From NCBI RefSeq assembly GCF_014201505.1, contig NZ_JACHEO010000001.1, forward strand, positions 62,001 to 126,000: a stretch of DNA of 64,000 nt, written 5' to 3'. The notes under the pieces were generated by a model. It saw only the letters and a list, made by a program, of their open reading frames with translations, had not been told where the DNA came from and searched no databases. This document shows positions 10,161 to 54,099 of this stretch, piece by piece. The translations under genes were made by a program, and so were the position numbers. Origin of the DNA: Desulfoprunum benzoelyticum. GTDB lineage: Bacteria > Desulfobacterota > Desulfobulbia > Desulfobulbales > Desulfocapsaceae. Numbering within the stretch: position 1 is the first letter of the stretch; every line of letters begins with the position of its first letter.

Positions 10161-10173
10161 GCGGACCTCTTTC

Positions 10174-12087: not shown

Positions 12088-12091
12088 CTGG

Positions 12092-12388: not shown

Positions 12389-12894
12389 TGGGTCATCTCC
12401 TTTTTCCCGGCAAGAACAACGGCACCGACCAGGGCGACGAGTAGCAGGATCGAGACGATCTCGAACGGCAGCAGCCAGTCGCGGAACAGTACCAGACCGA
12501 CCGACTTGACTTGTCCAAAGCCGTTGCCGACGATGTCGACATCTCCTTCCGGCAACGAGCTGACGATTTTCAGCAGGAGCAGGCCGATCGGAATGACCGC
12601 CAGACACCCGCCGAGGAGATAGGCCCACTTGCCTTTTTCGTCCGGGATGTCGGCAGGCTGGATATTGAGAAACATAATAATAAATATGATCAGGGACATG
12701 ATCGCCCCAGCATAGACGATAAGCTGCAGGGCAAAGAGCAGCGATGCCGAGAGCAGAGAGTAGAGCCCCGCCAGCGACACCAGGGTTACCACGAACCACA
12801 ATGCCCCGTTCATCGGATGCCGGCTGAGGATCAAACCAAGGGCGCCGAGCACCGACACGGTGGCGAATGCGTAGAACAGCCATTGACTGAGCAT
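12385..12894 (-). CDS. nuoJ: NADH-quinone oxidoreductase subunit J
   Basis: 169 residues from the ATG at 12894, five predicted transmembrane helices. Membrane subunit of complex I next to NuoA/H/K; the segment LLFALQLIVYAGAIMSLIIF is the characteristic third helix with the pi-bulge region. It begins five bases before the nuoI stop codon ends and overlaps nuoK by four bases. The open frame reaching 13053 is out-of-frame nuoI and was not used. Confidence 0.95.
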   Translation of the reverse strand: MLSQWLFYAFATVSVLGALGLILSRHPMNGALWFVVTLVSLAGLYSLLSASLLFALQLIVYAGAIMSLIIFIIMFLNIQPADIPDEKGKWAYLLGGCLAVIPIGLLLLKIVSSLPEGDVDIVGNGFGQVKSVGLVLFRDWLLPFEIVSILLLVALVGAVVLAGKKEMTQ

Positions 12895-12898
12895 GGTA

Positions 12899-13423
12899 TC
12901 ACAGCCCCCTTTTTTTGTAGTCTTCTTCGCTGAACGCCCCTGGCGTGGCCAGCAGTTCGTCCATTCCTTTGACGACGGAACTACGCTCAGAGGAAATGAC
13001 TGAGTAGATGCCGGTGTCCATACGGATGGCATCCATCGGACAAGCTTCGACACAATATCCGCAGTAAATGCATTCGAGCAGATCTATTTCAAAACGAATG
13101 GGCATCTTTTCCGATTTGCCGTCAACCCGTTCTCCCGCTTCGATCGAGATGCAGTGGGAAGGGCAATTGGTCTGGCACATGAAGCATGCGACGCATTTCA
13201 TCGTCCCGTCCTCATGGGTTGTCAGCCGATGCCGTCCCCGCCAGCGCGGTGTGATTTCCGGTTTGACCTCAGGGTAGTGGCGGACATAGGATTTCGAGTT
13301 GTCGAGCAGGATCCGCCAAAAATGGCCAAAGGTCGTGCGCATCCCTCTGAACACTTCGACCAGATAGAGCTTCTCGATGAAAGTGGAACCTTGGCGTTCC
13401 AAGGTCTTGATTTTTACAGTCAT
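12899..13423 (-). CDS. nuoI: NADH-quinone oxidoreductase subunit I (2 x [4Fe-4S])
   Basis: 174 residues from the ATG at 13423 (GAGGAATTCC precedes it). Ferredoxin-like subunit carrying clusters N6a and N6b: two CxxCxxCxxxC motifs, CVACFMCQTNCP (about residue 75) and CIYCGYCVEACP (about 118). It relays electrons from NuoG toward N2 in NuoB. An upstream in-frame start at 13507 would overlap nuoH by over 70 bases and is rejected. It lies between nuoH and nuoJ with only a few bases separating the genes. Confidence 0.95.
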   Translation of the reverse strand: MTVKIKTLERQGSTFIEKLYLVEVFRGMRTTFGHFWRILLDNSKSYVRHYPEVKPEITPRWRGRHRLTTHEDGTMKCVACFMCQTNCPSHCISIEAGERVDGKSEKMPIRFEIDLLECIYCGYCVEACPMDAIRMDTGIYSVISSERSSVVKGMDELLATPGAFSEEDYKKRGL

Positions 13424-13434
13424 GGAATTCCTCT

Positions 13435-14721
13435 TCAACTCAGAGCAACGACAACGGCGCTGGTGATAAAGATGTTCACGAGGGACATCGGCAGGAGAAT
13501 CTGCCAACCGAGTTTCTGCAGCTGATCATAACGGAACCGCGGCAGCGTCCAGCGTACCCAGACATAAACAAAACACATTATTGTGGCTTTCAACAGGAAG
13601 GAGGCCATCTGCAGCAGCACTACAAAAATCCGAACTCCGTCTGCACTGGGGTTGATTACCACCAAGGTAAGAAGAATGAGTTCGACGGCAGCGGCGAGGA
13701 TCCAACAGATCTTGATATAGACATTCGCTTCACGGACAAGGGGATCGTTTTGCCGATTGTAGTGGCTGACGTTGTTTTTCCGGATCCAGTTGGTGAAATA
13801 ATAAGTTATGACCGGCAGCAGCAGCATCAGCACGATGGCAATGGGCTGGGCGTACGCGACCATGGTCTCGGTGGCGAGCCAGGGGATCTGGTAGCCGCCG
13901 AAAAAGAGAGTGACGATGATCGCACTCGAGACGAACATCGCGACATACTCACCAAGGAAAAACATGCCGAATTTCATTGAACTGTACTCTATATGGAAAC
14001 CGGCGACGATTTCGCTTTCACCCTCGGCGAAGTCGAAGGGGGTGCGATTGGTCTCGGCAAAGGCAGCAACAATGAAAATGACAACGCCGAGTGGTTGGAG
14101 AATCACCCCCCACATTGGAATGAAGCCGAACAGCAGTTGTCCCTGAAATCTTGCGATCTCACTGAGATTGACCGTGCCGTAGACCACCAGCAGGCTGACA
14201 ATGGCCAGACCCATCGGGATTTCGTAGGCGATAACCTGTGCAGCGGATCGTAATCCACCGAGGATGCCGTATTTATTATGCGACGACCAGCCGGCGAGGA
14301 TAATTCCGTAGACTGCAAAACCAGTGCAAGCCAAGAACCAAAGTATGCCGATGTCGAGGGGGACGGTCTGCATAATGTAGCTTTTGCCGCCCAAAATCAG
14401 CGTATCAGCAAAGGGAATCACTGCGAATGAGACCAGGGCGGTGAAGAAGACCAGTACCGGCGCAAGGACAAAGTAGAACTTATGCTGTATATGCCCAGCG
14501 ATCATATCCTCCTTGAAGATCAGCTTCACTCCATCGGCGAGATTCTGCACCAGTCCGCCGGCTCGGAAACCAAAAATATTGCAACGGTTTGGGCCTAGGC
14601 GGTCCTGAATAAATCCGGCACCTCGACGCTCCATCCATACCCCGATCGCGATGAAGCAGATCGGGATGAAGGCGCCGAAGGCGACCCGGAGGACGACCAT
14701 GAGGATATCAAGCTGTGACAT
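13435..14721 (-). CDS. nuoH: NADH-quinone oxidoreductase subunit H, with extended insert
   Basis: 428 residues, clearly longer than the roughly 325-340 usual for NuoH. The quinone-chamber landmarks are intact: ERRGAGFIQDRLGPNRCN near the N-terminus, the acidic loop AFAETNRTPFDFAEGESEIV and EYSSMKFGMFFLGEY. The extra length sits after this loop, with additional hydrophobic and charged segments (TYYFTNWIRKNNVSHYNRQN) before the conserved C-terminal helix VWVRWTLPRFRYDQL. Complex I subunit forming the quinone entry site and joining the two arms. GGAGAAGGAGA precedes the start, which overlaps the nuoG stop by 14 bases. Confidence 0.93.
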   Translation of the reverse strand: MSQLDILMVVLRVAFGAFIPICFIAIGVWMERRGAGFIQDRLGPNRCNIFGFRAGGLVQNLADGVKLIFKEDMIAGHIQHKFYFVLAPVLVFFTALVSFAVIPFADTLILGGKSYIMQTVPLDIGILWFLACTGFAVYGIILAGWSSHNKYGILGGLRSAAQVIAYEIPMGLAIVSLLVVYGTVNLSEIARFQGQLLFGFIPMWGVILQPLGVVIFIVAAFAETNRTPFDFAEGESEIVAGFHIEYSSMKFGMFFLGEYVAMFVSSAIIVTLFFGGYQIPWLATETMVAYAQPIAIVLMLLLPVITYYFTNWIRKNNVSHYNRQNDPLVREANVYIKICWILAAAVELILLTLVVINPSADGVRIFVVLLQMASFLLKATIMCFVYVWVRWTLPRFRYDQLQKLGWQILLPMSLVNIFITSAVVVALS

Positions 14722-16270
14722 GATCAGTCTCCTTCTCCTTCAGATTCAATCCAGCAGTGGGAAAAGCGGTTGCCTCGATTCCGGCGAGGACCGGGATCGC
14801 ATCCTGCATCGCCTTGGTGATAGTGACGTCATCGGTCACCGGTCCACCAAGCAGACGAACTACCTCAATCATGTTCGGAACTGGATCATTTTTAACTACC
14901 GCCGCCGTGAACCGTTGCAGTATCTGGTCCTGGTTTATGATCGTCCCGCCATATTCGCTGTATGAGGAGACAGAGAAGGCGACTGTTGCCTTGCGGGTAA
15001 GTGTGTTGTCATGGCTGCTGACGGCGATGACGGTCAAAGCAGAAAGCTTCTCAGTAAAAGTACCGCTCGCTTCGCTACGCAGCAGATCGTTGTTGAAGTT
15101 GACAAGCAGATCGGCTTCGTTCAAGGCCAGCCTGAATGCTTCCAGTGTGGTATCGATTCCAAGGGCGGCGAAGCCGGCCCTATTGGCAGACTTGTCATCC
15201 CGTATCAGGAAATCGTCTCCGTCTCCTTCCATGATATAGCTGTCGCTGTATCCCGAGACCCTCCCTTTACGGGCGGTGGCTAACCCCTTGATCGCAATCA
15301 TCTGCTCGAGGGTACAATTCGGTGAGATCAGGAAAAGCGGTTTGCGGGCATTTTCGATCTTGCGGCGAGCAGTTTCCACAGCCTCGTCGATGGTGCAGTC
15401 TTTGCCGGCAAGTCGGGTGGTGCCCAGACGACCTTCATTCTCCTGATGATAACTCAATCGACCGGCGTCGCAGATGAAATAGCCATTGACCAGTCCATTA
15501 TGGCGTGCACGGAAACGATAGATACGATCATCTCCACCTTTTTCGCGGTTATGGTCAATGAAAATATTGCAGCCTTTTGCGCAACCATGGCAGATTCCGG
15601 ACGACCTTGACAGAAACCACGCCCGCTGTTTGAACCGGAAGTCCTTGCTAGTCATCGCCCCTACCGGGCAGAGATCGACGACATTGAGGGCGTAGCGGTT
15701 ATCGAGTTTTCGGCCGGGAAACGTTGTTACCCGTGCTTCATCAGAACGATTAACGATACCGAGTTCACCGGTTTTGGTAATCAAGCGAGTGAAACGGACG
15801 CAACGGGCGCAGAGGACGCAACGCTCCTGGTCATGGATGACGCCGCAGCCGAAATCCATCTTTTTGCCTTTGAGCACCTGTGGCACACGCATTCGGCTGG
15901 CCTGGTGATCATAGGTCATATAGTAGTCCTGCAGGGTGCATTCTCCGGCCTGATCGCAGACCGGGCAATCGGTCGGATGGTTGATCAATTCCAGCTCCAT
16001 GACATCATGCTGGATTTTCTTGATCTTCTCGGTGTCGAGCTGAACTTTCAGTCCCTCTGCGACCGGAGTCTTGCAGGCAGGGACGAGCGGCGGTCGGCCG
16101 TCTTCGATGCCGACCAGGCACATTCGGCAGTTGCCGTCCGCACCCAGGGCCGGATGATAGCAGAAGTGGGGAATCTCGACACCGATAACCTTGAAGGCAT
16201 CGATGAGGTTCTTCCCGGATTCCACTTCGACCTCTTGTCCGTTGACAAAGAGTTTTACCGTCTCAGCCAT
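14708..16270 (-). CDS. nuoG: NADH-quinone oxidoreductase subunit G (iron-sulfur, short form)
   Basis: 520 residues. An N-terminal [2Fe-2S] ferredoxin domain has CYHPALGADGNCRMC; the His-Cys cluster domain follows (HPTDCPVCDQAGEC), then CVLCARCVRF with a later partner Cys in VDLCPVGAM, and a molybdopterin-oxidoreductase-like [4Fe-4S] site CHGCAKGCN. The rest is a shortened version of the inactive oxidoreductase domain; E. coli NuoG is over 900 residues, so the C-terminal part is much reduced here, a known shorter form in some bacteria. It receives electrons from NuoE/F. It lies 21 bases after nuoF. Confidence 0.92.
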   Translation of the reverse strand: MAETVKLFVNGQEVEVESGKNLIDAFKVIGVEIPHFCYHPALGADGNCRMCLVGIEDGRPPLVPACKTPVAEGLKVQLDTEKIKKIQHDVMELELINHPTDCPVCDQAGECTLQDYYMTYDHQASRMRVPQVLKGKKMDFGCGVIHDQERCVLCARCVRFTRLITKTGELGIVNRSDEARVTTFPGRKLDNRYALNVVDLCPVGAMTSKDFRFKQRAWFLSRSSGICHGCAKGCNIFIDHNREKGGDDRIYRFRARHNGLVNGYFICDAGRLSYHQENEGRLGTTRLAGKDCTIDEAVETARRKIENARKPLFLISPNCTLEQMIAIKGLATARKGRVSGYSDSYIMEGDGDDFLIRDDKSANRAGFAALGIDTTLEAFRLALNEADLLVNFNNDLLRSEASGTFTEKLSALTVIAVSSHDNTLTRKATVAFSVSSYSEYGGTIINQDQILQRFTAAVVKNDPVPNMIEVVRLLGGPVTDDVTITKAMQDAIPVLAGIEATAFPTAGLNLKEKETDHVTA

Positions 16271-16291
16271 GATGGTTCCTTCTCACGTGAT

Positions 16292-17560
16292 TCATGCTTG
16301 TTCGGGCTTGGGCCGGTCCGTGGCGTAGGCCACAAATTCTGACCGGAATTTGTCCAGATAGCTGCGCACCGGCATAGTGCAGGCGGCCGAAAGGACGCAG
16401 ACCGTCTTCATCTCGATATTGTCACAGAGTTCCCTGAGCAGTTCGATGTCGGCAATGGTCCCTTCACCACGCAGCAGCTGTTTGACAATCTTCAGCATCC
16501 AGCCGAGTCCCTCGCGGCAGGGAGTGCACTGGCCGCAGGATTCATGGTGATAGAAGTCGATGAGATTTTTTGTTAGTTCGACCACATCGACCGTTTCGTC
16601 GAGGACAACGATACCACCGGATCCGAACATCGTCTTGTGGGCCGCCATCGATTCGTAGTCAAGAGTCGCCGTTGCTGCCTCCTCCGGAGTCAGCACTGGA
16701 GTCGAACTGCCACCGGGGATGACGGCCTTCAGTTTTCTTCCCCGCCAGACACCGCCGGCCATCTTTTCGATAACTTCAAGAAGAGGCAGACCGAGAGGCA
16801 GTTCGTACATGCCAGGTTTCTCAACGTGGCCTGAGATCCCGAAGAGATGGGTTCCCGGGCTTTTTTCAGTGCCATAGGCCTTATAGGCTGCAGCACCGTT
16901 GGCGAGAATGAACGGCAGTGAGGCAATGGTCTGAACGTTGTTGATGATTGTCGGGCAGCCATAGAGTCCGGCTACGGCTGGAAACGGCGGTTTGCTGCGG
17001 GGTTGTCCTTTTCGCCCCTCGATCGACTCGAGAAGGGCGGTTTCCTCGCCGCAGACATAGGCGCCGGCGCCGCGGTGGACGGTGACGTCGAGCTTGAAAT
17101 CATGACCGGCGACCTTCTCCCCGAGATAGCCGGCGGCATATGCCTCATCGATGGCGAACTGCAGAGCCTTGCGCTGAGTCGTATACTCGCCGCGAATGTA
17201 TATATAGCAGTCATGACAGCCGATGGCGTAACAGCAGATGATAATGCCTTCGATGAGGAGATGGGGGTCGCGGGTGAGGATATATCGATCCTTGAATGTC
17301 GCCGGTTCCGATTCATCGGAGTTGACGGTAAGGTACACCGGTTTATCCACTCCTTTCGGGAGGAACGACCATTTGAGGCCCGCCGGAAACCCGGCGCCAC
17401 CACGCCCACGCAATCCACTGTTTTTGACCTCGTCGGTGACATCAGCTGGCGGCATCGCAAAGACCTTGTCGAGCGTGGCGTAGGCGCCATGCTGTTTGGC
17501 CACTTCCAGAAGGTGGGCATCGGCGATGTCGAATTTTCGGCTGAGAATCCTTACTTCCAT
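16292..17560 (-). CDS. nuoF: NADH-quinone oxidoreductase subunit F (NADH/FMN site)
   Basis: 422 residues, normal length. It oxidises NADH: the FMN/NADH loop GRGGAGFPAGLKW is at about 52-64, the acidic NADH-binding stretch SDESEPATFKDR follows, then GAGAYVCGEETAL, and the N3 [4Fe-4S] ligands are in ESCGQCTPCREG with a fourth Cys in MKTVCVLSAAC. Unlike fused hydrogenase-type homologues it has no extra ferredoxin domain, which supports a genuine complex I role. It follows nuoE by 13 bases. Confidence 0.96.
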   Translation of the reverse strand: MEVRILSRKFDIADAHLLEVAKQHGAYATLDKVFAMPPADVTDEVKNSGLRGRGGAGFPAGLKWSFLPKGVDKPVYLTVNSDESEPATFKDRYILTRDPHLLIEGIIICCYAIGCHDCYIYIRGEYTTQRKALQFAIDEAYAAGYLGEKVAGHDFKLDVTVHRGAGAYVCGEETALLESIEGRKGQPRSKPPFPAVAGLYGCPTIINNVQTIASLPFILANGAAAYKAYGTEKSPGTHLFGISGHVEKPGMYELPLGLPLLEVIEKMAGGVWRGRKLKAVIPGGSSTPVLTPEEAATATLDYESMAAHKTMFGSGGIVVLDETVDVVELTKNLIDFYHHESCGQCTPCREGLGWMLKIVKQLLRGEGTIADIELLRELCDNIEMKTVCVLSAACTMPVRSYLDKFRSEFVAYATDRPKPEQA

Positions 17561-43507: not shown

Positions 43508-44647
43508 CTACATTTTGTTGAGTTTTTCCTGAGCCTGCGCCGCCTCCGGCGATGAGCCATAACTGGACAGGATTTTCTGGTAGATGATTTTGGCGGTTTC
43601 GTTGTCGGAAAGCTTTTCGAAGGCCATGGCCTGACGCAGCATCGCCGACGCTGCCTTCGGATGTTTGGCCTGTTGGGCGATAATCTTTTGATATTGTAGA
43701 ATTGCCTGATCGAATTCTTTCTGCTGGAACAGACACTCTCCCATCATGTAGCGGGCATCGATGGCATCGTTGCCGGTGCCGTTGTCCCTGACAACCTGTT
43801 CGTACAGTGCGTAGGCTTGTTGGTATTTGCCGCTGTCGTAGAGATTTTTGGCCTCGGCCAGACTGCCACCCGTCTTGACGGCGGCAGGGGCGGGCGAAGG
43901 AGGAGGCGGCGGTGCAACTGGCTGTTGCGGAGGTGGTTCAGGCGCAATGCGCTGCTGGACCTCGGTCTGGACAGCGGCCGGTGGCGTCGGCGGTGCGACT
44001 GATGCCGTCAAGGTCGGTTTCGGCGCCACGGCGGTGGTTTCCGGCAGCGTTGAAGAGGAGAGGATTTTTTTCTGCTGCGCCGCCCCGATCTTGACGACTC
44101 CGGCGCCACCGGTCGCCAGGGCGCTGCCGGCTGCCTGTGTCCGTGCCTTGGCCTTTTCTGCCGCAAGTTTCGCTTCCCGGGCACGGCGTTCAGCCTCCTG
44201 TACCCTCGCCTCCTGCATCGCCTGGACACTTTCCTGCTGCACCTTCAGTTTTTCGGAGAGTTCGGCCAACTTGGCTTCCTTGGCTTTCTGCTCCTCCTCC
44301 ATCCGCCGTATCGCCTCGTCACGTTTGGCGGATTCCTGTTGGGTGTAATTAGAAAAAGTATTCTCGAGCTGGGTGTTTTTTTCCTTCAGCTGGGAATTGA
44401 GCTGTTGCGTCTCATCGAGCTGACTTTTGAGGGTCATAATCTCCTGCTCGAGCTGGCTCATCTGGCCTGACGAATCGGCCTGCCGTTTCTGGAGATCGCT
44501 GACGGTATTGACCTTCATGTCCTCCAGTTTCTTGTTCATGATGCGCAGCTGGTACTGCAGGTTCTGAACCTCGTTCTGGGTCGCGCACTGCAGAAGGAAC
44601 GGGGAAACGGCGATCATCAGTGCGAAATGGAGGATGGTTTTTTTCAT
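43508..44647 (-). CDS. cpoB: Tol-Pal system protein CpoB/YbgF, long form
   Basis: 379 residues. The N-terminus is a signal peptide ending LLQCATQNEV, possibly a lipobox-like Cys (the -1 Gln is atypical). An N-terminal coiled coil (about 25-170, Gln/Glu/Lys-rich) trimerises in relatives. A Pro/Ala-rich linker (about 200-265) follows, and three TPR-like repeats (about 265-379: AKNLYDSGKYQQAYALYEQV, GECLFQQKEFDQAILQYQKI) end it. Periplasmic partner of TolA that coordinates outer-membrane constriction with peptidoglycan synthesis. Located after tolB with no pal between them. Confidence 0.9.
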   Translation of the reverse strand: MKKTILHFALMIAVSPFLLQCATQNEVQNLQYQLRIMNKKLEDMKVNTVSDLQKRQADSSGQMSQLEQEIMTLKSQLDETQQLNSQLKEKNTQLENTFSNYTQQESAKRDEAIRRMEEEQKAKEAKLAELSEKLKVQQESVQAMQEARVQEAERRAREAKLAAEKAKARTQAAGSALATGGAGVVKIGAAQQKKILSSSTLPETTAVAPKPTLTASVAPPTPPAAVQTEVQQRIAPEPPPQQPVAPPPPPSPAPAAVKTGGSLAEAKNLYDSGKYQQAYALYEQVVRDNGTGNDAIDARYMMGECLFQQKEFDQAILQYQKIIAQQAKHPKAASAMLRQAMAFEKLSDNETAKIIYQKILSSYGSSPEAAQAQEKLNKM

Positions 44648-44680
44648 AGCATTGCCAGGCTGAATTAGGGTTGAAGGTCG

Positions 44681-45964
44681 TTACCGCGACCACCGGGGAT
44701 AGGTGTTGCTGCCCGGGAAAGAGAAGATAGGCCGCTGGAAACTGCCGTTTTTCATGATGGCATGGATCTGGTGCCTGTTGCCGCCACGTTTTGCAAAGAT
44801 AATCTGGTTCCCGTCCGGGGACCAGCTCGGCATTTCATGATGACTGAGATCGGTAGTGAGCTGCTGGGCTGCACTGCCGTCGGGTTTGATCGTGCAGATC
44901 TGATACACGCCATTACGCAGGCTGGTGTAAACGATGAGATTCTCCGTAGGGGACCAGGATGGTTCGGAGTTTTCAGATCCCTCGAAGGTGAGGCGCTGAA
45001 CCTGACGAGTAGAAAGATTCATCATATATATATGAGGCTTGCCGGTACGATCGGAGACGAAGACAATCTGGCTGCCGTCCGGCGACCACGACGCGGATAC
45101 GTTGATTCCGGAGCGGTCGGTCAGCTGTTCAATGATTTTGGCATTGCTGTCACAGAGATACAGGTCGGGATTGCCATTGATCGACAATGTCAGAATCATG
45201 TACCGTCCGTCCGGCGACCAGGCGGGTGCGAGGTTCAGTCCCTTTCTTTTTGAAATCAAACGGGTCGTCTTGCTCTGGCTGAGATCGGTAATATAGAGGT
45301 TCTGGTTGCCGGAATGGTATGAGGTGTAGCTGAGCTTCTTGCCGTCGGGCGTAAAACGTGGGGAAACGGCGAGATTCCGGTGACGGGTCACCTGCCGCAG
45401 TTTGTGGCCCAGGATGTCGGTGAGATACACTTCCTTGGCGTTACGCGTATAGGAAACGAAGGCGATCTTGGTGGAGGCGATGCCTGGCTTGCCGGTCAGG
45501 GCTTCAATCACGCTGTCGCAGAATTTGAACAACATTTCGTCCTGCTGCTGGACCGTCCCGGTGTAGGATTTGCCGAGGAGAATCTGATTGGTTGCGATGT
45601 CGAGGACACGGATCTCTAAAGAGAGGTTCTTGCCGGACAGAGCGAACTGACCGAGAACGGCATAATCAACGCCGAGTTGCCGCCAGTTTGCCGACTGGGT
45701 ACCGCCGTACTCGGCAGTGGGGGAAATACCGATGACACCGTGAAATTCGAGGGCCTTGGCCAGGGTGTCGGCCAGTTCCTTGCCCTTGCTCTGGTCCTGA
45801 CCAGCCTGGGCGTTGGCGAACCACGGGACGGCAAAGTTGATCTTGCGGGTGCTGGAAGCGGTGATATCGACATATACCCGGTCGGCGGCCTGAGATGGAG
45901 ATGGCAGGCTGAAGCACGACAGAAGCAGAAATATGAGCGCAAATGCTGATTTGTTCATTGTCAT
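44681..45964 (-). CDS. tolB: Tol-Pal system beta-propeller protein TolB
   Basis: 427 residues from the ATG at 45964 (a second ATG at 45958), with a clear signal peptide (AFALIFLLLSCFSLPSPSQA). An N-terminal domain with RVYVDITASSTRKINFAVPW precedes a six-blade propeller whose repeats read SWSPDG, APAWSPDGRYM, PSWSPDGNQIIFAK and similar. Periplasmic protein that binds Pal in other bacteria. An upstream extension to 46042 overlaps tolA and lacks a signal peptide. Confidence 0.94.
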   Translation of the reverse strand: MTMNKSAFALIFLLLSCFSLPSPSQAADRVYVDITASSTRKINFAVPWFANAQAGQDQSKGKELADTLAKALEFHGVIGISPTAEYGGTQSANWRQLGVDYAVLGQFALSGKNLSLEIRVLDIATNQILLGKSYTGTVQQQDEMLFKFCDSVIEALTGKPGIASTKIAFVSYTRNAKEVYLTDILGHKLRQVTRHRNLAVSPRFTPDGKKLSYTSYHSGNQNLYITDLSQSKTTRLISKRKGLNLAPAWSPDGRYMILTLSINGNPDLYLCDSNAKIIEQLTDRSGINVSASWSPDGSQIVFVSDRTGKPHIYMMNLSTRQVQRLTFEGSENSEPSWSPTENLIVYTSLRNGVYQICTIKPDGSAAQQLTTDLSHHEMPSWSPDGNQIIFAKRGGNRHQIHAIMKNGSFQRPIFSFPGSNTYPRWSR

Positions 45965-46001
45965 GGGTACACGCTGTAGGGCTGAGGTCTGGGTTGATCG
46001 G

Positions 46002-47006
46002 CTAATGGATTCCGCCGGGGCTGAATTTGAGCCCCATTTCAATGCGTTGCTTCCGCAAAGCAGGCGGGATCGGCGGTAATGGATTGGCCGCTTCTATACT
46101 CTTGATCACGAACTGGTCGTACAATGCGTCGCCGGAACTGGATTCGATCTGGGTATCGGCGACTTCCCCGCTCTTGCTGATGGTAATAATGACGACCGTG
46201 AGCAGGGCCGGATCGAACGTTTTGATCTCCGGCAGCTGGAAGAACGGCTGAATCCGGGCGGCCACAGCAGCATAGTACTGGGCGTCAAGGGCGCTGGTCG
46301 ACCCGCCGCCCTGGGTTGCCGCGGGGCTTGACGAGGTCGAGGTGCTTGACGTGGTCGAGGAGGCGCTGCCCTGAACCGATGAGCGGATCTGCGACAGCCG
46401 TTGCCTCGTCTGTTCCATCCGATTGCGTTCGGCTTCGGCCGCTTCGGCTGCCAGCTGCGCCTCTTCGGCGGCAATCTGCTCGGCCCTCAGACTTTCGGCC
46501 AGCTGCTGACGCGTCTGTTTTTCGATCTCCCGATTGCGTTTCTGTTTCTCGATCTCTTGTTCGCGCCTTTCCGCTTCCCGTTGCACCGTATCATCCGGCG
46601 GCACCTCTTTCTTTACCTTTCGCTTGATCGGTGTCAGCGATACCGCTTTCGGCGGTGCCGGCGGAGCGACTTCTGCCGGCTGCACGACTTCTGCCGGCTT
46701 TTCGGCGGCAACTGGGACCGCCGCTTTCGGCGGAATCTTGACCGGGGCCGCGGTTTTTTCAATGACCTTGGGCGGCGCTGCCGGCGGCGGTTGAGACTGC
46801 GTCTTGGCCGGCGCCGGCGCTGGCGCTGGAGCTGGAGCCGCTGGCGCTGCCGGCTCTTCCATATTTACAAGATTGACCGAATAGATATCAACAAATTCCG
46901 GTTTGCTTTTGAAGACCATCGGAAACAGGATCGTCGACAGGGCCACCAGAATATGGAAACCGATCGCCAGATTGAGCGGCAGTTTCCAGTCGTTGTTGCT
47001 GCTCAT
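46002..47006 (-). CDS. tolA: TolA-like protein with TonB C-terminal domain
   Basis: 334 residues from the ATG at 47006 (47036 is an alternative). A short cytoplasmic head, one transmembrane helix (AIGFHILVALSTILFPMVF), an Ala/Pro-rich stretch with APAPAPAPA, a long charged helix rich in Arg/Glu/Gln/Ala, a Ser/Thr-rich linker, and a TonB/TolA C-terminal domain (about 240-334: YYAAVAARIQPFFQLPEIKT, VVIITISKSGEVAD). Inner-membrane protein spanning the periplasm, energised by TolQ/R. Annotated TolA on order and architecture; sequence of these domains is low-complexity. Confidence 0.9.
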   Translation of the reverse strand: MSSNNDWKLPLNLAIGFHILVALSTILFPMVFKSKPEFVDIYSVNLVNMEEPAAPAAPAPAPAPAPAKTQSQPPPAAPPKVIEKTAAPVKIPPKAAVPVAAEKPAEVVQPAEVAPPAPPKAVSLTPIKRKVKKEVPPDDTVQREAERREQEIEKQKRNREIEKQTRQQLAESLRAEQIAAEEAQLAAEAAEAERNRMEQTRQRLSQIRSSVQGSASSTTSSTSTSSSPAATQGGGSTSALDAQYYAAVAARIQPFFQLPEIKTFDPALLTVVIITISKSGEVADTQIESSSGDALYDQFVIKSIEAANPLPPIPPALRKQRIEMGLKFSPGGIH

Positions 47007-47038
47007 GTATGTTACTCGGTATTCCTGGTATGTCATGC

Positions 47039-47458
47039 CTATTCAAGTTTTTCTGATGGCTTGGTGATCATGCCGAGCTTGTCGAAGCCGGCCGCTTTGA
47101 TATCCGCCATGACCGTAACCACGCTCCCGTAGGCTGCATCCTTGTCGGCCTTCAGGTAGATAGGTTCTTTCTTTTTTTCTTCGGACATGCCATCAAGTTG
47201 CTCTTTAAGCTTTGCCGGGGCCATCTCCAACTTCCCTAAAGTGATCTTCCCCTCCTTGTCGACGGTGACGATGAGTGGCTCATCGTCCTGCCGCAGGGCC
47301 TTTGACGTGGTCTCAGGCAGGTTGACGTCAAGTCCCTGGGTCATCATCGGCGCCGTCACCATGAAGATGATCAACAGCACCAGCATGACATCAACCAGTG
47401 GCGTGACGTTGATGTCTGCGACCAACCCTTTTCGGCCTCTACCGTTCAATGGACCCAT
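47039..47458 (-). CDS. tolR: Biopolymer transport protein TolR/ExbD
   Basis: 139 residues. Short N-terminus, one transmembrane helix with the conserved Asp (INVTPLVDVMLVLLIIFMV), then a periplasmic domain with DVNLPETTSK and the lipid-facing C-terminal region. It forms the proton channel with TolQ. It follows tolQ by 42 bases and precedes tolA, the standard order. Confidence 0.94.
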   Translation of the reverse strand: MGPLNGRGRKGLVADINVTPLVDVMLVLLIIFMVTAPMMTQGLDVNLPETTSKALRQDDEPLIVTVDKEGKITLGKLEMAPAKLKEQLDGMSEEKKKEPIYLKADKDAAYGSVVTVMADIKAAGFDKLGMITKPSEKLE

Positions 47459-47500
47459 AGAATTATCTGCAATATTGGTGTGATATGATTTGAAACAGAA

Positions 47501-48202
47501 TTACACCCGGCTTATAAAATCACGTTCGACCAGGTTGAGGAAATCGGTCGTGAAATTCTGCATGTTCCCATCGATATCGTTTACTCTGTTCGAGAAATAA
47601 TTAAAGAAAATAACTGCCGGAATGGCCACGGCCAAGCCGGCGGCGGTGGCGACCAGAGCTTCGGAAATGCCGGGGGCGACGACCGCCAGGGAGGCGGAAC
47701 CACGCTGGCCGATATCGTGGAAAGAAGCCATGATCCCCCAAACGGTACCGAAAAGACCGATGAACGGTGTGGCGCTGCCGGTTGTTGCCAGAAAGGCGAG
47801 CGCACTCCCGAGTTTGGTCAGTTGCTGGGCCTCGGCCTTCCTGACCGCTCTCTTCAGGTTGTCCATGGTTGCAAGCTGCATCTCCAGGGTTTCGGCAGCG
47901 GCATTCTCGTCTTTCCTGCTGCGGATCTTGTTGATCTTCTGCAATTCCGCAAACCCGGCGGTGAAGACCGACGCCTCTGGGCTGTACTCGTACTCGGTCG
48001 CTGCCTTATGGGCCTCGTTCAGGTTCGTTGAGGCCCAGAAAGTTTCGAGAAAGTCCTCGCTGTCAATGCGGACCTTGCGGAACAGTCGAGTCTTCATGAA
48101 CACAATGGTCCATGAAGCTACTGAAAATATAAGTAATGTCAGCATAACCAGTTGTCCTACCGGTCCTGCGTGAAAAATCATGTCGGTGATTGAAAGCTGC
48201 AC
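47501..48202 (-). CDS. tolQ: Biopolymer transport protein TolQ/ExbB
   Basis: 233 residues from a GTG at 48202 with AAGG nine bases upstream; the ATG at 48181 is an alternative. Three transmembrane helices: QLVMLTLLIFSVASWTIVFM, the long ATTGSATPFIGLFGTVWGIM and EALVATAAGLAVAIPAVIFF, the last two being the family signature with conserved Thr/Pro/Gly. MotA/TolQ/ExbB proton channel. First gene of the tolQ-R-A-B-cpoB run. Confidence 0.94.
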   Translation of the reverse strand: MQLSITDMIFHAGPVGQLVMLTLLIFSVASWTIVFMKTRLFRKVRIDSEDFLETFWASTNLNEAHKAATEYEYSPEASVFTAGFAELQKINKIRSRKDENAAAETLEMQLATMDNLKRAVRKAEAQQLTKLGSALAFLATTGSATPFIGLFGTVWGIMASFHDIGQRGSASLAVVAPGISEALVATAAGLAVAIPAVIFFNYFSNRVNDIDGNMQNFTTDFLNLVERDFISRV

Positions 48203-48409: not shown

Positions 48410-48856
48410 TCAGACTGTTTTCTGGAGGGTGCAGGAAAAATCGATCTGGAGGGCGAGTTTCTCCCGGACATGGAGTCTCGCTGAAAAAAACCAGGCTGAG
48501 GAGAGCATTTCGGTGAGTTTGACCGTCATGACAATGGTATCTCCCGGATACACCGATCTCTTGAATCTGGCGCCGCCGATTCGGGCGAGAACCGGGACGC
48601 AGGCTTCGATTCCCGCTTTCCCGCGTTCCTGCATTTTCGCCAGCAGCAGGGCCCCTGACTGGAATACCGCCTCGCAGAGCAGGACCCCGGGCATGATCGG
48701 ATGGCCGGGATAATGTCCCAAGAAGATGTCCAGATCGGTAGGGATCATTTTTTCGGTGACGATGGTATCATCCTGATAGTCGACGATCCGGTCGACCCAG
48801 AGAAACGGCGGACGATGAGGGATAAGGGCATGTATTTCCGGATCGGGAGAAAGCAT
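48410..48856 (-). CDS. FabZ-type 3-hydroxyacyl-ACP dehydratase, cluster copy
   Basis: 148 residues from the ATG at 48856. Hot-dog-fold dehydratase with IPHRPPFLWVDRIV, the catalytic GHYPGHPIMPGV (His48) and EAVFQ (Glu62; usually EAMAQ), and ARFKRSVYPGDTI. The spacing is that of FabZ. It should dehydrate 3-hydroxyacyl-ACP made by the adjacent FabG-type enzyme. The start overlaps the fabG-like stop (TGATG), and the gene closes the ketosynthase-ACP-oxidoreductase cluster. Its EAVFQSGALL segment is divergent from housekeeping FabZ. A continuation of this frame upstream to 49597 is antiphase reading of the neighbour. Confidence 0.88.
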   Translation of the reverse strand: MLSPDPEIHALIPHRPPFLWVDRIVDYQDDTIVTEKMIPTDLDIFLGHYPGHPIMPGVLLCEAVFQSGALLLAKMQERGKAGIEACVPVLARIGGARFKRSVYPGDTIVMTVKLTEMLSSAWFFSARLHVREKLALQIDFSCTLQKTV

Positions 48857-49593
48857 CACAGGCCTCCGTTGATTTCCAGCACTGCGCCGGTGATATAGCC
48901 GGCGTTCCTGCCGGCGAGAAAGAGAACGGCATCGGCGACCTCGGCGGTGGTGCCGAAGCGGCGCATCGGTACCAGGGCCTTGTAGCCGTCGAGTTGCTCC
49001 TTCGGCAGGCCGTGGAGGAAATCGGTCTCGATGAAACCGGGGGAGACGCAGTTGACGGTAATCTTTTTTTTCGCCGTTTCCTTCGCCAGCGACCTGGTCA
49101 TGCCGATTTGCCCGGCCTTGGAGGCGGCGTAGTTGGCCTGACCGGCAAAGCCGAGATACGATATCGGGGAGGTGATGTTGATGATGCGGCCGTATTTTTT
49201 CTTCATCATCAGCAGGACCGCCTGCTTCGCCATCAGGAAGGAACCGGTAAGGTTGATGTCGATGACGGATCGCCAGTCCTCGCTCTTCATCATCGCCAGC
49301 ACGGCATCGCGGCGGATTCCGGCGCAGTTGACGAGGATGTCGATGGCTGAGAATTGCCGTTCGACGGCAGCGAAGAAGGAATTGACCTGGGTCTCGTCGG
49401 CGACATCGCATTGAAAGAGATGGAGCTTGTTCGTCCCGCCGCTTTCCTGCCGCAACTGCTTCACCGCCTGATGGTTGCTGTGGTAAATGCCGGCCACCGT
49501 TGCCCCCTGCTGCAGCAGGGCAAGGGTAACCGCCTTCCCTATGCCGCGGGTTGCACCGGTGACCACGGCGACCTGGTGCAGAAAAGTATCCAT
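48856..49593 (-). CDS. FabG-type 3-oxoacyl-ACP reductase, cluster copy
   Basis: 245 residues from the ATG at 49593 (GAGG eight bases upstream). Short-chain dehydrogenase with the NADPH motif VTGATRGIGK, the structural DILVNCAG, Asn114, Ser142, Tyr155 and Lys159 in NYAASKAG, as in FabG. The loop ISYLGFAGQ takes the place of the usual VSSVVG-like segment. Inferred to reduce a 3-oxoacyl chain on the ACP of this cluster. It starts four bases before the end of the preceding oxidoreductase stop region and overlaps the fabZ-like start by one base. Confidence 0.9.
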   Translation of the reverse strand: MDTFLHQVAVVTGATRGIGKAVTLALLQQGATVAGIYHSNHQAVKQLRQESGGTNKLHLFQCDVADETQVNSFFAAVERQFSAIDILVNCAGIRRDAVLAMMKSEDWRSVIDINLTGSFLMAKQAVLLMMKKKYGRIINITSPISYLGFAGQANYAASKAGQIGMTRSLAKETAKKKITVNCVSPGFIETDFLHGLPKEQLDGYKALVPMRRFGTTAEVADAVLFLAGRNAGYITGAVLEINGGL

Positions 49594-49597
49594 GCAA

Positions 49598-51010
49598 TTA
49601 TCCTCGCAATGAACGCAGGTAGCCATCGGCGTCATTGGCGACGATGACCCCGTAGTTGATGGCCCCCAGCCAGCCGGACATGATGATCCCGACGGAGCCG
49701 ACGTGAAACAGTCCGCCGATCTCCTTGAAGATCGTTCGGGAAATGTCGAGACCTTCGAATTTGGTTCCGAACGAAGTCCCGCAGGTATGCAGGGTGTAGT
49801 GGTTGAACGTGCGCGGGGTGGCCGCCTCGACCCAGTCGACCTTGGTCCGGATGTCGGGGAGATAGCGTGTGAGGTCATCGAGCGTCCGTTCTATCAGCAG
49901 CTCCTTTTCGCCGACGTACTGTTCGTCATCCATGTTTTGCCAGTCTTCGAAGCGACTGTTCATCGAGGCAACAATGGTATAACGGTCATGGCCGGGCCGG
50001 GTTTTTGGGTAGTAGAGGGAAAAGGTCTTTGACCTCGTGTGCAGATCGAGCAGTTCCCGGGAATCGAATTCCGGCGCGGACGAGGTGAACAGCAAATCGC
50101 CGATATCGTTAACCTGCTCACCCTTCCTGATGCCGATATAGACCTGGCAGCTGGAGTTGTTGACCCGGATGGCCGCCGCCTTCTCGAGAAAGGCCTCGGA
50201 AAAAGCGCGCCTGTCGGTGAGGTTGTTGATGGTATTGGTGATGCCGCTATTGGAGACCACCGCCTTTGCCGCAATGACCCTGCCGTTGGCCTCGACCCCC
50301 TTGACCCTGCCTTTTTCGACGACAATCCTTTCGACCTTCGACCTGGTGCAGATCGTCACCCCGTTTTTTTCGAGCTCGGCAGTCATCATGTCGATCAACC
50401 TGTCCGTCCCGCCTTCGAAGGTGAAAACGCCTCGACTCATGAAATTGGAGAAAACAATGCCGTAGGTGATCGCCGGGTCGTCCAGGGTCGAACCGTTGGC
50501 GTAGGTGATGGGTTCCATCAGCAGCCTGTGGATATCGGTCCGGCCGGGGAAGAACTGTTCGAACAGCTCCCGGGTGGTCATCGTCTGGTCGTCGTAGAAA
50601 TTCATCGACGAGACTGCGGAGAAGAACGCCTCTATCGTCTGCCGGGGGATGCGGAAACGGTTTTCGAGAATCGAGGTGAAATCCTGCCGGTCAAAGGTCG
50701 TCTCCAGGGAAAACTGGGGATTGTCAAAAACGATTTTTTTGAGCTGGACGATGGAGTTCATGATCTCGCGGTTCCAGTACTTCTTGCAGGTCTTGACCAT
50801 CCCATAAGGAAAACCGTGCAGTGACACATCGAAGATATGGCCGCGGCGCTTGAACCAGGCGGCGAGCCCGCCGAGCTTGTGGTGGTATTCGAGCAGCAGG
50901 ACTTTGTGGCCGCAATAGGCAAGGCGATTGGCGGTCGTCAGTCCCCCCAGTCCCGAGCCAATGATGATCGCATCATAGGCATCGGATGCTTCAGAAAATG
51001 GCACAGGCAT
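49598..51010 (-). CDS. CrtI-like FAD-dependent oxidoreductase (phytoene-desaturase superfamily), first copy
   Basis: 470 residues from the ATG at 51010; a TTG at 51058 overlaps the neighbour stop and is an alternative. N-terminal FAD Rossmann motif [20 protein letters not shown] with acidic [11 protein letters not shown]; substrate-domain region [17 protein letters not shown]-terminal FAD signature [20 protein letters not shown], as in carotenoid desaturases and isomerases. Soluble or peripheral; no transmembrane helix. No carotenoid genes (phytoene synthase, GGPP synthase) are near. It lies between the second CrtI-like gene and the FabG-type gene, so an acyl substrate is more plausible than a carotenoid; reaction unknown. 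Confidence 0.85.
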
Positions 51011-51054
51011 TGAAATAATCTGATTGCTTGCTTGAGGTTGAATGCCGGAACGAA

Positions 51055-52440
51055 TCAAAATTTGTTGAGAATATGCTGATTTACCATGGATACACCACTG
51101 AGCATCGAGCCGACGATGCCCAGGAATCCCTGATCGGTTCCGGCAAGGAAGAGGTTGTCATAGCCAAGGTCCCCATCCTTTATTTTTTGCGGATTTCCAT
51201 AAATTGCGCCTTCTTTCTTAGCAGTGTAGCGTTCGATTGTCAACGGGGTGAAGGTGTCCTGAAAGACGATCGCCTGGCCGAAATTGCCGACGATGTCCTC
51301 GAGCACCAACCTCGATCGTTCGGCTGTTTGCGTCTTCAGGGACTCATAGGCCTGGCGGTCGGCGGCGATCGTCTGCCATTGCTCGTAACTGGCGAGATGG
51401 GTGGATCGGACTTCTTTTGTGGTCGTGGCCTGGAGCCCTGCGAAATTTGACGGCAGGCAGATGACTCCACTGGAGAAGTCGACCGCCTGATCGGGGCGTC
51501 GATATCGGAACGACTCGCTATTGTTGAAGAAGATGATGGTCCGGTCGGTGGGGAGGGTCGGACCGCGGCAGGTCTGGATCTGATAGATGGTCTCGACGAA
51601 GCCGAGACGCGTCGAGTCGCTGGACAATGGCGGGCGGTGGAGCAGGGCGAGGGTCTCGTCAAGGCCGATGGTCGAAAGGATCGATCCGCAGTGGATTGTC
51701 TCTCCCGTGGTCAGAACGACGCCTTGGACCTTGCGGCCGTCGTGGAGGATCTCCCGCACTCCGGCGCTCGTGCGGATCGAACCACCGAGACCTCGGTAAT
51801 GGTCGAGCAGGCGGTCGAGCAGGGTCTTGATCGATCCGCCCGGCCTGAACATCCCCTCTTGAAAAATCGACCGGAACATGATGGCGAACTGGCTGAGGTC
51901 CATATCGTCTTCGACACTCGAGCCGTAATACATCAGGGGGCAGAGCAGCATGTCGACCAGCAGGCGATCGGGGAGAATGTCGAGAAGGAACAGCCGGGCG
52001 GAGCGAAACGGGGCGATCGTGAAGGGATCGAAGCTGTCGAGCAAGGACACGAGCCGGTCGAACCCATCGCTGGAACGGGGGAATTTCGAGGCGATTTCGT
52101 CCTTGATCAACATGAAATCATTGGAGAATAAAAGACTCTCAACTCCTTTGAAGACGATTTCACTGCAGATCTGCTGATGGATATCGAGATGATCGCGATT
52201 GAACTTGAGTTGTCGCAACAGGCGATTGAGCGGCGCCCTCCTGTTGCCTGCATCGGCATAGTTGGTAATCGCGTGCAGCCCGGTTTCGAAGATTCTGTTG
52301 TTTCTGTAGAAATACGAGTTGAGACCGCCGATGCGGCTGTGTTTTTCGAGGAGGAGAACTTCGGGGTTGAATCGGGCAAATCTGATGGCGGCGGCAAGCC
52401 CGGAGAGCCCGCCGCCGATGACGAGGAACGGAACCTTCAC
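51055..52440 (-). CDS. CrtI-like FAD-dependent oxidoreductase, second copy
   Basis: 461 residues from a GTG at 52440, right after the acyl carrier protein stop, so translation is probably coupled. FAD motif [36 protein letters not shown], the substrate-side [17 protein letters not shown] and the C-terminal [19 protein letters not shown]. It is clearly not a recent duplicate of the first: the two share the fold and signature positions but differ widely elsewhere. Like the first it resembles phytoene desaturase/isomerase enzymes. Inferred to act on chains made by this cluster. Confidence 0.85.
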
Positions 52441-52443
52441 CCC

Positions 52444-52695
52444 TCAGGCGTCTTGCAACAGGGGTTCCAGGTAGTCCGCGCAGCTGTTGAGGGTGGCGAG
52501 ACGGGGGTAGTCGGATTCGGGGATCTGCAACTGGTGACGCTTGCGGAGTTCCATGACGATGTCGAGAAAATCCATGGAATCAAGGTCGAGTTGATCGCGG
52601 AGCGGTTTGTCGGGATCCAGATCGTCAAAATCCGCCTCGTCATCTATGTCGTGAATAATCTCCAGGATAAGAGTTTTGATATCTTCTCGCGTCAT
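52444..52695 (-). CDS. Acyl carrier protein, cluster copy
   Basis: 83 residues, GGAG seven bases before the ATG. Four-helix acyl carrier domain with the phosphopantetheine Ser40 in DLDSMDFLDIV (family DSLD/M motif). Highly acidic, as usual. It differs from housekeeping AcpP in length and in the hydrophobic segment after the Ser, and sits with a ketosynthase, reductase and dehydratase instead of fabD/fabF genes, which points to a dedicated carrier. Confidence 0.93.
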   Translation of the reverse strand: MTREDIKTLILEIIHDIDDEADFDDLDPDKPLRDQLDLDSMDFLDIVMELRKRHQLQIPESDYPRLATLNSCADYLEPLLQDA

Positions 52696-52782
52696 GAGTG
52701 TCTCCAGATAATATATTGATCAGTAGCGTGTGTTTGCAGGGTCGGAAGTGCTGCCGCTTTTGCGGAAAATACAATCGGCAAA

Positions 52783-52796
52783 GGTATCTGTATACC
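52783..52796. promoter_or_regulatory. Dyad upstream of the acyl carrier protein gene, possible operator
   Basis: GGTATCTGTATACC is a 5-base inverted repeat (GGTAT/ATACC) around CTGT, in the 160-base gap between the ketosynthase stop and the acyl carrier protein start. No matching promoter boxes are clear. Confidence 0.25.
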
Positions 52797-52854
52797 ATAG
52801 ATGCTAGAACTTTTTCATTCTTTTTTTGTCACGATCGATTTTCAGCGCCAGTGC

Positions 52855-54099
52855 TCACGGCTCAAATTTCTTGACGATGAGGGCCGAGTTGATGCCGACC
52901 ATACCGAAGGAGTTGTTGAGGATAACTGAAATCGAGCCGGCATCGACCGGGGTATTGACGACAAGATTGGGGAGACTGCACTCCGGATCGAGTTCGTCGA
53001 TGTTGATGGTCGGATGGACCAGGTGATCGTCGAAGGAGGGGAGATTGCCGGCCAGTTCGAGGACCCCGGCTGCACCCATCGCGTGGCCGATGTTGCTCTT
53101 GGTGTTGTTGACGTATGTCGATGCCGAATCTCTGAAGACCTCGCGGATCGCCTTGCACTCTTCGATATCGCCCTGCCTGGTGCCGGTGGCGTGGGTATTG
53201 ATCAGATCCACATCTTCCGGTCGCAGTCCGGCCCGCCTGAGGGCAAGCCGCATGCACTCGGCCTGCCTCGGTCCGTAGGGCAGCACAAAGTCCCGGGCAT
53301 CGGAGTTCATCGCGTAGCCGACGATTTCCCCAAGTATCCTGGCGTTCCTGGCAAGTGCCCGGTCCATGGATTCGATGACGTAGATGCAGCCTCCCTCGGA
53401 GATGACAATACCGTTGCGGCCGAGATCGAAGGGTCGTGACGCCCGTCGGGGATCGGTGGCCTCGGCGAGGGCGTTCTGGGCCTTGAAGCTGGCGAAGATA
53501 CCGAAGGATCCGACTGATTCGGAGACACCACCGGCAAGCGCCATATCCACCTCGCCGAGTCGAATCATCTGTGCCGCCTGGATCAGGGCGGCGTTGCCGG
53601 CGGCGCAGGCGGCCCCGATCGAGTAGTGGGGACCGGTGATGCCGAGGCTCATCGTGATCTCGCCGGCGGGGTTGTTGAGGACGGTTCGCGGGTTGTGGTG
53701 GTGGGTCCAGTAGTTGGTGTCGTAGTTGTATCTGCTGATGTTGAACACTTCGTTTTCGGTCTCGACGGTGCCATGCTCGGTCAGGCCGATATAGACGCCG
53801 ATACGGGCGGGATCACAGGACGAAATCTCAATTCCGGCGTTCACCAGGGCCTCGTGGGCACAATAGACACCGATACAGCCGGCGCGGGTCCCACGTTTGT
53901 TTTCCTTGTTTTTCCGATGTTTGGTCTCTGGAAAGGTGCATAAACCTGCCGCCGCCTTGCCGAAGTAGCGGAGATCGATTTCCTGGATCTCGCTGATCCC
54001 GTGCAGCAGTTTACGGCGAAACTCGACAGGATTGTCGGCATTCGGGGAGACTAGGCCGACACCGGTGATTACGATTCTGCGATCGAGGGGATTATTCAT
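52855..54099 (-). CDS. Beta-ketoacyl-ACP synthase (FabF/KAS II type), cluster copy
   Basis: 414 residues. Thiolase-fold condensing enzyme with complete Cys-His-His triad: Cys165 in GAACAAGN (usually ACSTG), His303 in NTHATGT and His339 in KSNIGHAMGAAG. It elongates acyl-ACP. Unlike FabF, a basic insert (KHRKNKENKRG, about 60-70) and the altered nucleophile loop suggest a distinct substrate. No chain-length factor partner is present. It is separated from the acyl carrier protein gene by 160 bases, and starts the cluster, upstream of ACP in transcription order. Confidence 0.9.
   Translation of the reverse strand: MNNPLDRRIVITGVGLVSPNADNPVEFRRKLLHGISEIQEIDLRYFGKAAAGLCTFPETKHRKNKENKRGTRAGCIGVYCAHEALVNAGIEISSCDPARIGVYIGLTEHGTVETENEVFNISRYNYDTNYWTHHHNPRTVLNNPAGEITMSLGITGPHYSIGAACAAGNAALIQAAQMIRLGEVDMALAGGVSESVGSFGIFASFKAQNALAEATDPRRASRPFDLGRNGIVISEGGCIYVIESMDRALARNARILGEIVGYAMNSDARDFVLPYGPRQAECMRLALRRAGLRPEDVDLINTHATGTRQGDIEECKAIREVFRDSASTYVNNTKSNIGHAMGAAGVLELAGNLPSFDDHLVHPTINIDELDPECSLPNLVVNTPVDAGSISVILNNSFGMVGINSALIVKKFEP

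Follow-up and report, generated by a model that had tools for sequence, protein, structure and literature searches.

A 64,000-nucleotide stretch of the Desulfoprunum benzoelyticum genome (contig NZ_JACHEO010000001.1, positions 62,001 to 126,000; hereafter, the window) contains a block of six genes on the minus strand that encode components of type II fatty acid synthesis (FASII) together with two flavoenzymes of the CrtI/amine-oxidase fold. We conclude that this cluster is probably a dedicated, O2-independent type II polyunsaturated acyl synthase that is predicted to deliver C16 chains bound to acyl carrier protein (ACP) to OleA, from which the OleABCD enzymes would produce a C31:9-type hydrocarbon. 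On the best reading of the data, the cluster appears to take the place of the multidomain Pfa synthase as the acyl supplier to OleA. The genes, in the order of transcription, are the following.

52855-54099, minus strand: KS, FabF-like beta-ketoacyl-ACP synthase (ketosynthase), 414 amino acids (aa), PF00109/PF02801
52444-52695, minus strand: ACP, dedicated acyl carrier protein, 83 aa, PF00550
51055-52440, minus strand: CrtA, CrtI/amine-oxidase-fold flavoenzyme, first of the pair, 461 aa, GTG start
49598-51010, minus strand: CrtB, CrtI/amine-oxidase-fold flavoenzyme, second of the pair, 470 aa from a conserved ATG
48856-49593, minus strand: FabG-like 3-oxoacyl-ACP reductase, 245 aa, PF13561/PF00106
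48410-48856, minus strand: FabZ-like 3-hydroxyacyl-ACP dehydratase, 148 aa, PF07977

A preliminary description of this DNA had placed six open reading frames (ORFs) of these families at these positions on one strand, and the ORF positions and Pfam matches confirm the cluster in all these respects; because the gene order is conserved across the family Desulfocapsaceae and beyond, the arrangement is not due to chance. The start/stop overlaps described at the same time are confined to the FabG/FabZ pair (TGATG, 1 nt), the other four junctions, from KS to FabG, being gaps of 159, 3, 44, and 4 nt. Translation of CrtB could also start from a TTG (51058), but the ATG is where its aligned orthologs start.

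The cluster KS scores 308 bits against TIGR03150 (307-308 vs a cut-off of 494) and is thus not recognized as the housekeeping equivalog; the housekeeping FabF (650 bits, over the cut-off) is a separate gene on another contig, so that, as had been noted from the sequence, no housekeeping fab set adjoins the cluster. The catalytic residues Cys165, His303, Lys334, and His339 are retained in every ortholog in an alignment of 17 KSs and likewise in a second alignment of 16 that includes two from other phyla. The ACP has 15 NCBIfam matches, all under the cut-off (36 bits vs 84 for NF002147), shares 72-95% identity with the ACPs of the other family loci, and includes a DSM motif that we take to be the phosphopantetheine site. 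FabG reaches 281.6 bits against TIGR01830 (cut-off 297.75) and passes the broad FabG subfamily model NF009466 (250/222), and FabZ reaches 111.5 bits against NF000582 (cut-off 113) and 111 against TIGR01750 (cut-off 155). Searches of the PDB with KS, FabZ, and ACP retrieved ordinary FabF, FabZ, and ACP relatives.

CrtA and CrtB fall below all carotenoid cut-offs (best score/cut-off, 61/550 and 105/587 bits, respectively), and among named matches, CrtA is closest to a protein from a Desulfoprunum metagenome-assembled genome (MAG; 87%). The window genome, which is 93% complete, lacks the phytoene/squalene synthase PF00494, in agreement with the original remark that carotenoid-backbone genes are missing. 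A carotenoid pathway was therefore rejected. Both proteins yielded confident structure models with carotenoid-desaturase-like folds, and carotenoid desaturases, at 15-19% identity to the solved structures, are the best matches in the fold search. The lower matches, namely amine oxidases, protoporphyrinogen oxidases, and the Propionibacterium acnes fatty acid isomerase 2b9w, have similar Z scores that do not point to any one reaction; when CrtA was scanned with PADLOC, the sole match, to a desaturase-like model, was weak and covered its first 50 residues. Given that 2b9w, a fatty acid double-bond isomerase, has the same fold, isomerization by CrtA and CrtB is possible rather than demonstrated.

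CrtA orthologs (E below 1e-100) were detected in 87 of the 93 family genomes, and all six genomes without one are less than 90% complete. Among the 40 family loci that were fetched, the set of six is complete and in order in 34, and TolQ follows FabZ in 35, so the proposed check of whether the six genes stay together gave a positive answer, within the family and also beyond it. The exceptions are L037, with no FabG match; L051 and L052, with no FabZ match and no space for one; L070, which lacks both although 3.2 kb of the contig is left; and L048 and L058, which end before KS. Because FabG and/or FabZ are gone in L037, L051, L052, and L070, the most constant part of the locus is KS, ACP, CrtA, and CrtB. 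The two genus g8 genomes that were fetched (L051, L052) have no FabZ in its place between FabG and TolQ, and one genus g2 genome (L037) has no FabG between CrtB and FabZ; housekeeping enzymes may substitute in each case.

OleC is present in 88 of the 93 family genomes (84 over the cut-off) and in all 54 good ones. The window genome encodes OleA, OleB, OleC, and OleD: OleA on contig C4 (G000:C4:133045-134073) and OleC, flanked by OleB and OleD, at G000:C1:352957-354576, about 240 kb from the cluster. In three fetched relatives (L244-L246), oleBCD lies just past the tol genes, convergent with the cluster, and in a fourth (L247), about 14 kb past TolB.

Outside the family, the association becomes physical. 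Of 17 loci that belong to other families of the phylum, 13 have the six genes in order, 13 have FabI, and 10 have OleA on the same strand. In a set of representatives, the family scans identified OleA (PRK09258) and OleC (PRK09274) over the cut-off, along with an OleB-like hydrolase and a FabI-like reductase; the olefin beta-lactone synthetase models for OleC and the 2-alkyl-3-oxoalkanoate reductase models matched by OleD stayed below their cut-offs. In family f33, oleABCD is inserted between CrtA and CrtB. The fused arrangements are as follows.

KS-ACP-CrtA-CrtB-FabG-FabZ-FabI-OleABCD: L098, L100, L104, and, up to OleC at the contig end, L223 (Desulfogranum japonicum)
KS-ACP-CrtA-OleABCD-CrtB-FabG-FabZ-FabI: L106, L109, L110
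KS-ACP-CrtA-OleABCD: L233, a Bacteriovoracaceae MAG
OleBCD-KS-ACP-CrtA-CrtB-FabZ-FabI: L272, from the class of a Phycisphaerae MAG
CrtB-FabZ-FabI-OleA-OleB: L261, an Opitutaceae MAG

From the names in the record titles, we take the Bacteriovoracaceae, Opitutaceae, and Phycisphaerae to be other phyla. Among the named CrtA loci, the best 80 of 496 confirmed ones, which in part come from the genomes above, include 52 with all six genes in order, 77 with KS-ACP-CrtA, 14 with FabI, and 15 with OleA, many of the stretches ending early. OleA was found in each of 11 named genomes drawn from these 80 loci; L201, L223, and L233 already had it at the locus. A further Opitutaceae locus (L229) carries KS-ACP-CrtA on its own contig, with no ole neighbor other than a weak OleD-like match on the opposite strand, and the Phycisphaerae MAG contigs (L227, 3.0 kb; L260, 4.5 kb) are too short to show neighbors. 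Sampling at the class level around the Phycisphaerae MAG yielded CrtA in 4 of 120 genomes, the central one included; L271 and L272 have ole genes directly before KS-ACP-CrtA-CrtB-FabZ-FabI, with no FabG match, and L273 has KS-ACP-CrtA only.

In the genomes sampled, the cluster and PfaA-like synthases do not occur together. A single sample of 395 genomes of the phylum was searched for CrtA, OleA, PfaA-like synthases, and FabA. CrtA was identified in 22 genomes, OleA in 44 (all over the cut-off), and PfaA-like proteins (TIGR02813, E <= 1e-100) in 40, of which 18 exceed the curated cut-off. The 44 OleA genomes split into 18 with CrtA and 26 with a PfaA-like synthase, with none containing both and none containing neither; by family, OleA is found with CrtA in 6 and with Pfa in 12, with zero overlap. 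By the same E-value criterion, a PfaA-type multidomain synthase is absent from all 22 CrtA genomes and from the window genome.

The KS tree separates 19 cluster KSs, as a clade (99/98), from the FabF of the window genome, the single sequence representing FabF, and from two PfaA KS domains, to which the cluster KS is about 29% identical. CrtA (16 sequences; 97/95) and CrtB (13 sequences; 100/99) each form a clade of their own, and two further PF01593 proteins of the window genome fall outside both. These are the trees that had been suggested as a check; deep placement in both is unsure because several branches are long. Family f33 groups with the Bacteriovoracaceae MAG in the trees of KS (99/95), OleA (100/100), and, weakly, CrtA (91/33), which is the pattern expected of a block transferred as a unit. 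Across the OleA tree, which covers the 44 genomes and four additional ones, one or two changes of supplier label are needed, with two changes in the best tree and a single CrtA/Pfa split in 16% of bootstrap trees. This tree supersedes an earlier one, built without 7 of the 26 Pfa-type and 2 of the 18 CrtA-type OleAs, in which all CrtA-type OleAs were on one side of one branch (87/64).

From the genes, their order, the fusion with FabI and oleABCD, and the partition, we infer the product and each catalytic step as follows. KS, FabG, and FabZ would carry out elongation on the dedicated ACP, and FabI, which is in the operon in many lineages, would perform full reduction at C4, C10, and C16. CrtA and CrtB would be two flavin-dependent isomerases acting on the 2E-enoyl-ACP made by FabZ, one converting 2E to 3Z (C6, C12) and the other 2E to 2Z (C8, C14), with the assignment to CrtA and CrtB possible either way. 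Two isomerizations would be the minimum for 16:4 n-3 (double bonds 4, 7, 10, and 13), and the need for these plus one enoyl reductase would match the two flavoenzymes plus FabI. OleA, with OleBCD, would then join two polyunsaturated C16 chains into one hydrocarbon. In Pfa-containing bacteria, a 16:4 n-3 chain is predicted to pass to OleA, probably from ACP, and recognition of the cognate ACP by OleA has been suggested (PMC6463001).

Several observations weigh against this scheme. FabG or FabZ is missing at 4 of the 40 family loci listed above, so that neither is strictly part of the cluster, and the scores of both are near the housekeeping cut-offs. FabI and OleA are adjacent to the cluster in none of the 40 loci of its own family. 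Of the 26 OleA genomes of the Pfa type, no more than 15 exceed the curated cut-off for PfaA, and the six weakest (family f83) match the ketosynthase part of PfaA only, three of these having a FabA-like domain on the contig of the PfaA-like match. For the association of CrtA with OleA, the nominal Fisher p of 1e-15 is computed over related genomes and overstates the partition because the supplier label switches only once or twice in the OleA tree. The records from outside the phylum are all MAGs, so binning errors are possible. Among the best 120 of 484 matches to a Desulfotalea MAG protein, most of which are nameless, none is named Desulfotalea psychrophila, whose cluster is accordingly deduced from the locus tags given in PMC2649909. 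Finally, 4 of the 22 CrtA genomes lack OleA, namely, G095 (84% complete) and G103, G141, and G177, the last three from a single genus (g35) of family f15; in these genomes, therefore, the product of the cluster may have another use. The partition is best understood as the outcome of a switch that happened once or twice in the past, after which matched pairs were faithfully co-inherited and co-transferred, rather than as many independent events; so few switches weaken the statistics but fit a matched supplier-acceptor pair.

In the OleA-less genomes of genus g35, the cluster is accompanied by FabI (G177, L111 and L248 being the same place; G103, L113 and L153; G141, L154). Upstream of KS, G177 encodes three proteins (341-366 aa) that are related to one another and contain hydrophobic stretches.

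The alternative that we take most seriously, although we consider it less likely than not, accepts that the cluster makes the chain and casts CrtA and CrtB as true desaturases, which would dehydrogenate saturated or monounsaturated acyl-ACP and pass the electrons to a membrane carrier, as proposed for homologous families (PMC2649909). A different end product, that is, free or membrane-bound polyunsaturated fatty acids (PUFA) or another polyene, only part of which would be used by OleA, seems unlikely. Genus g35 and G095, which retain the cluster with FabI and have no detected OleA, are compatible with it, but OleA is present in 18 of the 22 CrtA genomes, and the published profiles, as far as accessible, of two strains of Desulfosediminicola (a genus placed in Desulfocapsaceae) and of D. 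psychrophila contain no clear PUFA, by a method that may miss some (PMC8497536); a summed feature possibly including 18:2 reaches at most 1.2%. Slightly less likely still is that the cluster is the general anaerobic route of the family to monounsaturated membrane fatty acids, replacing FabA, with a secondary tie to ole. The cluster is core in the family, strains of which contain 16:1 and 17:1 acids (PMC8497536), and FabA over the cut-off is found in none of the 93 family genomes. The lack of FabA is, however, not specific to the family because none of the 395 phylum genomes, most of them without the cluster, has FabA over the cut-off either, and four sampled genomes of family f4, of the same order, have neither FabA over the cut-off nor the cluster; moreover, the Pfa partition and the oleABCD fusion indicate PUFA. 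FabA replacement was thus dropped as a specific lead. At E <= 1e-20, FabA matches occur in 40 of the 395 genomes, many in Pfa-like ORFs of more than 900 aa, and a FabA-like match that stands alone occurs in three f33 genomes with CrtA.

The preliminary description proposed a ladderane-like or polyene lipid pathway as a candidate. A dedicated polyene-lipid assembly line is supported by the separate KS, CrtA, and CrtB clades, the conserved order, and the oleABCD tie, but ladderanes or other ring-bearing lipids now appear very improbable as the product. Judged from the literature, the broad families (CrtI-like, FabF-like, ACP, and FabZ) are indeed common to the anammox gene sets (PMC2649909, PMC4790861). 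However, no radical SAM gene, the absence of which had been pointed out, was found among the six genes, the adjacent SH3 gene, and the nine flanking ORFs, the rest of the genome not having been scanned; the KS retains its active site, in contrast to the altered ones of the unusual anammox FabFs (PMC2649909, Table 2); and the conserved partners are the head-to-head olefin genes oleABCD. The sulfate reducer mentioned in that description is D. psychrophila, which, according to the available text of PMC2649909, contains C31:8 and C31:9 hydrocarbons with no Pfa-type synthase, and no ladderanes were detected in it. The ladderane reading was accordingly set aside.

On the preferred reading, the cluster is analogous to, but not a member of, the Pfa plus OleABCD systems of the Shewanella and Geobacter type: both are predicted to provide OleA with polyunsaturated acyl-ACP made de novo without O2, and both co-occur with OleA and are linked to ole. 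Pfa, however, is a multidomain enzyme with dehydratase/isomerase domains, whereas the cluster consists of separate type II proteins, among which two CrtI-fold flavoenzymes would take the place of those domains. OleABCD, the head-to-head olefin pathway, is the conserved partner, of which the cluster would be the acyl supplier and not a part. CrtI and CrtISO share the fold and FAD-binding family with CrtA and CrtB, but the sequence divergence, scores below the cut-offs, and missing phytoene synthase described above set them apart. FabX of Helicobacter pylori is a flavoprotein with a fold other than that of CrtI. Like the proposed isomerases, it functions in unsaturated fatty acid synthesis, as a bifunctional dehydrogenase/isomerase (PMC8626469), but it is a [4Fe-4S] enzyme. 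The nearest precedents are the FASII clusters with phytoene-dehydrogenase-like genes reported in Kuenenia and D. psychrophila (PMC2649909), where two CrtI-like genes have consecutive locus tags in the latter (DP2405/DP2406). These likewise combine KS, ACP, FabG/FabZ-type, and CrtI-like proteins, and a role in an anaerobic route to PUFA or polyunsaturated hydrocarbons was already suggested; the cluster described here differs in having no radical SAM, methyltransferase, or CoA-ligase genes and in its intact KS, and a link to oleABCD was not found in the accessible part of that paper. In work from 2016, the two Kuenenia enzymes produced no lycopene (PMC4790861).

Anaerobic PUFA supply for olefin synthesis and the CrtI-like FASII clusters (PMC2649909) are thus already known. 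Pfa-like types were tied to ole in 2011 (PMC3098273), in a text that contains neither of the words Desulfotalea and phytoene, and a literature search, with most subscription journals outside its reach, found no link between CrtI-like FASII clusters and oleABCD in the titles, opening lines of abstracts, and passages covered. New, as far as the covered literature goes, are the defined gene set, the oleABCD fusion in several arrangements, the Pfa partition, the occurrence in MAGs of other phyla, and the proposal of two isomerases.

Polyunsaturated chains are made by O2-dependent desaturases and by Pfa-type synthases. With somewhat less than even confidence, we suggest that nature has a third way of making methylene-interrupted polyunsaturated chains and that the cluster represents it: a type II synthase of separate proteins, with CrtI-fold 2E-to-3Z and 2E-to-2Z isomerases in place of the dehydratase/isomerase domains of Pfa, that is core in a Desulfobulbales family, is present in cable bacteria, and has moved among four phyla with its own OleA. 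If correct, this would account for the C31:8 and C31:9 hydrocarbons of the Pfa-less D. psychrophila, a puzzle since 2009 (PMC2649909), would offer a small-protein assembly kit for the engineering of PUFA and hydrocarbons, and would provide a test case for the role of the CrtI-like enzymes in anammox clusters. It would also make polyunsaturated hydrocarbons predicted biomarkers of Desulfobulbales, including cable bacteria, for which they are predicted because these bacteria carry cluster genes and OleA. In the cable bacteria (Electrothrix gigas and Electronema; L221, L224, L228), KS-ACP-CrtA was found along with OleA, with no CrtB in the 9 kb that follow in L221.

On one side, the cluster is flanked by an SH3-domain gene, a dihydrouridine-synthase-like gene (below the cut-off), MurJ, and EF-G. 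On the other, tolQ-tolR-tolA-tolB-ybgF (43508-48202, minus strand; tolA and ybgF below the cut-off) follows directly; one small ORF among the nine flanking ORFs scanned has no match. In the set of 17 loci from other families, tol genes adjoin the cluster in L112 (family f25), where tolQ, tolR, and tolB (12570-16057) lie just upstream of KS, and the other 16 loci have no Tol match. An acyltransferase-3 family protein (PF01757) is encoded between CrtB and FabG in family f2 (L101, 12325-13458; homolog in L102, 6276-7388). Elsewhere in the window (8649-17560, minus strand), there are NADH-quinone oxidoreductase matches to NuoM, NuoL, NuoH-like, NuoG-like, and NuoF proteins, those to NuoH and NuoG being below the cut-off.

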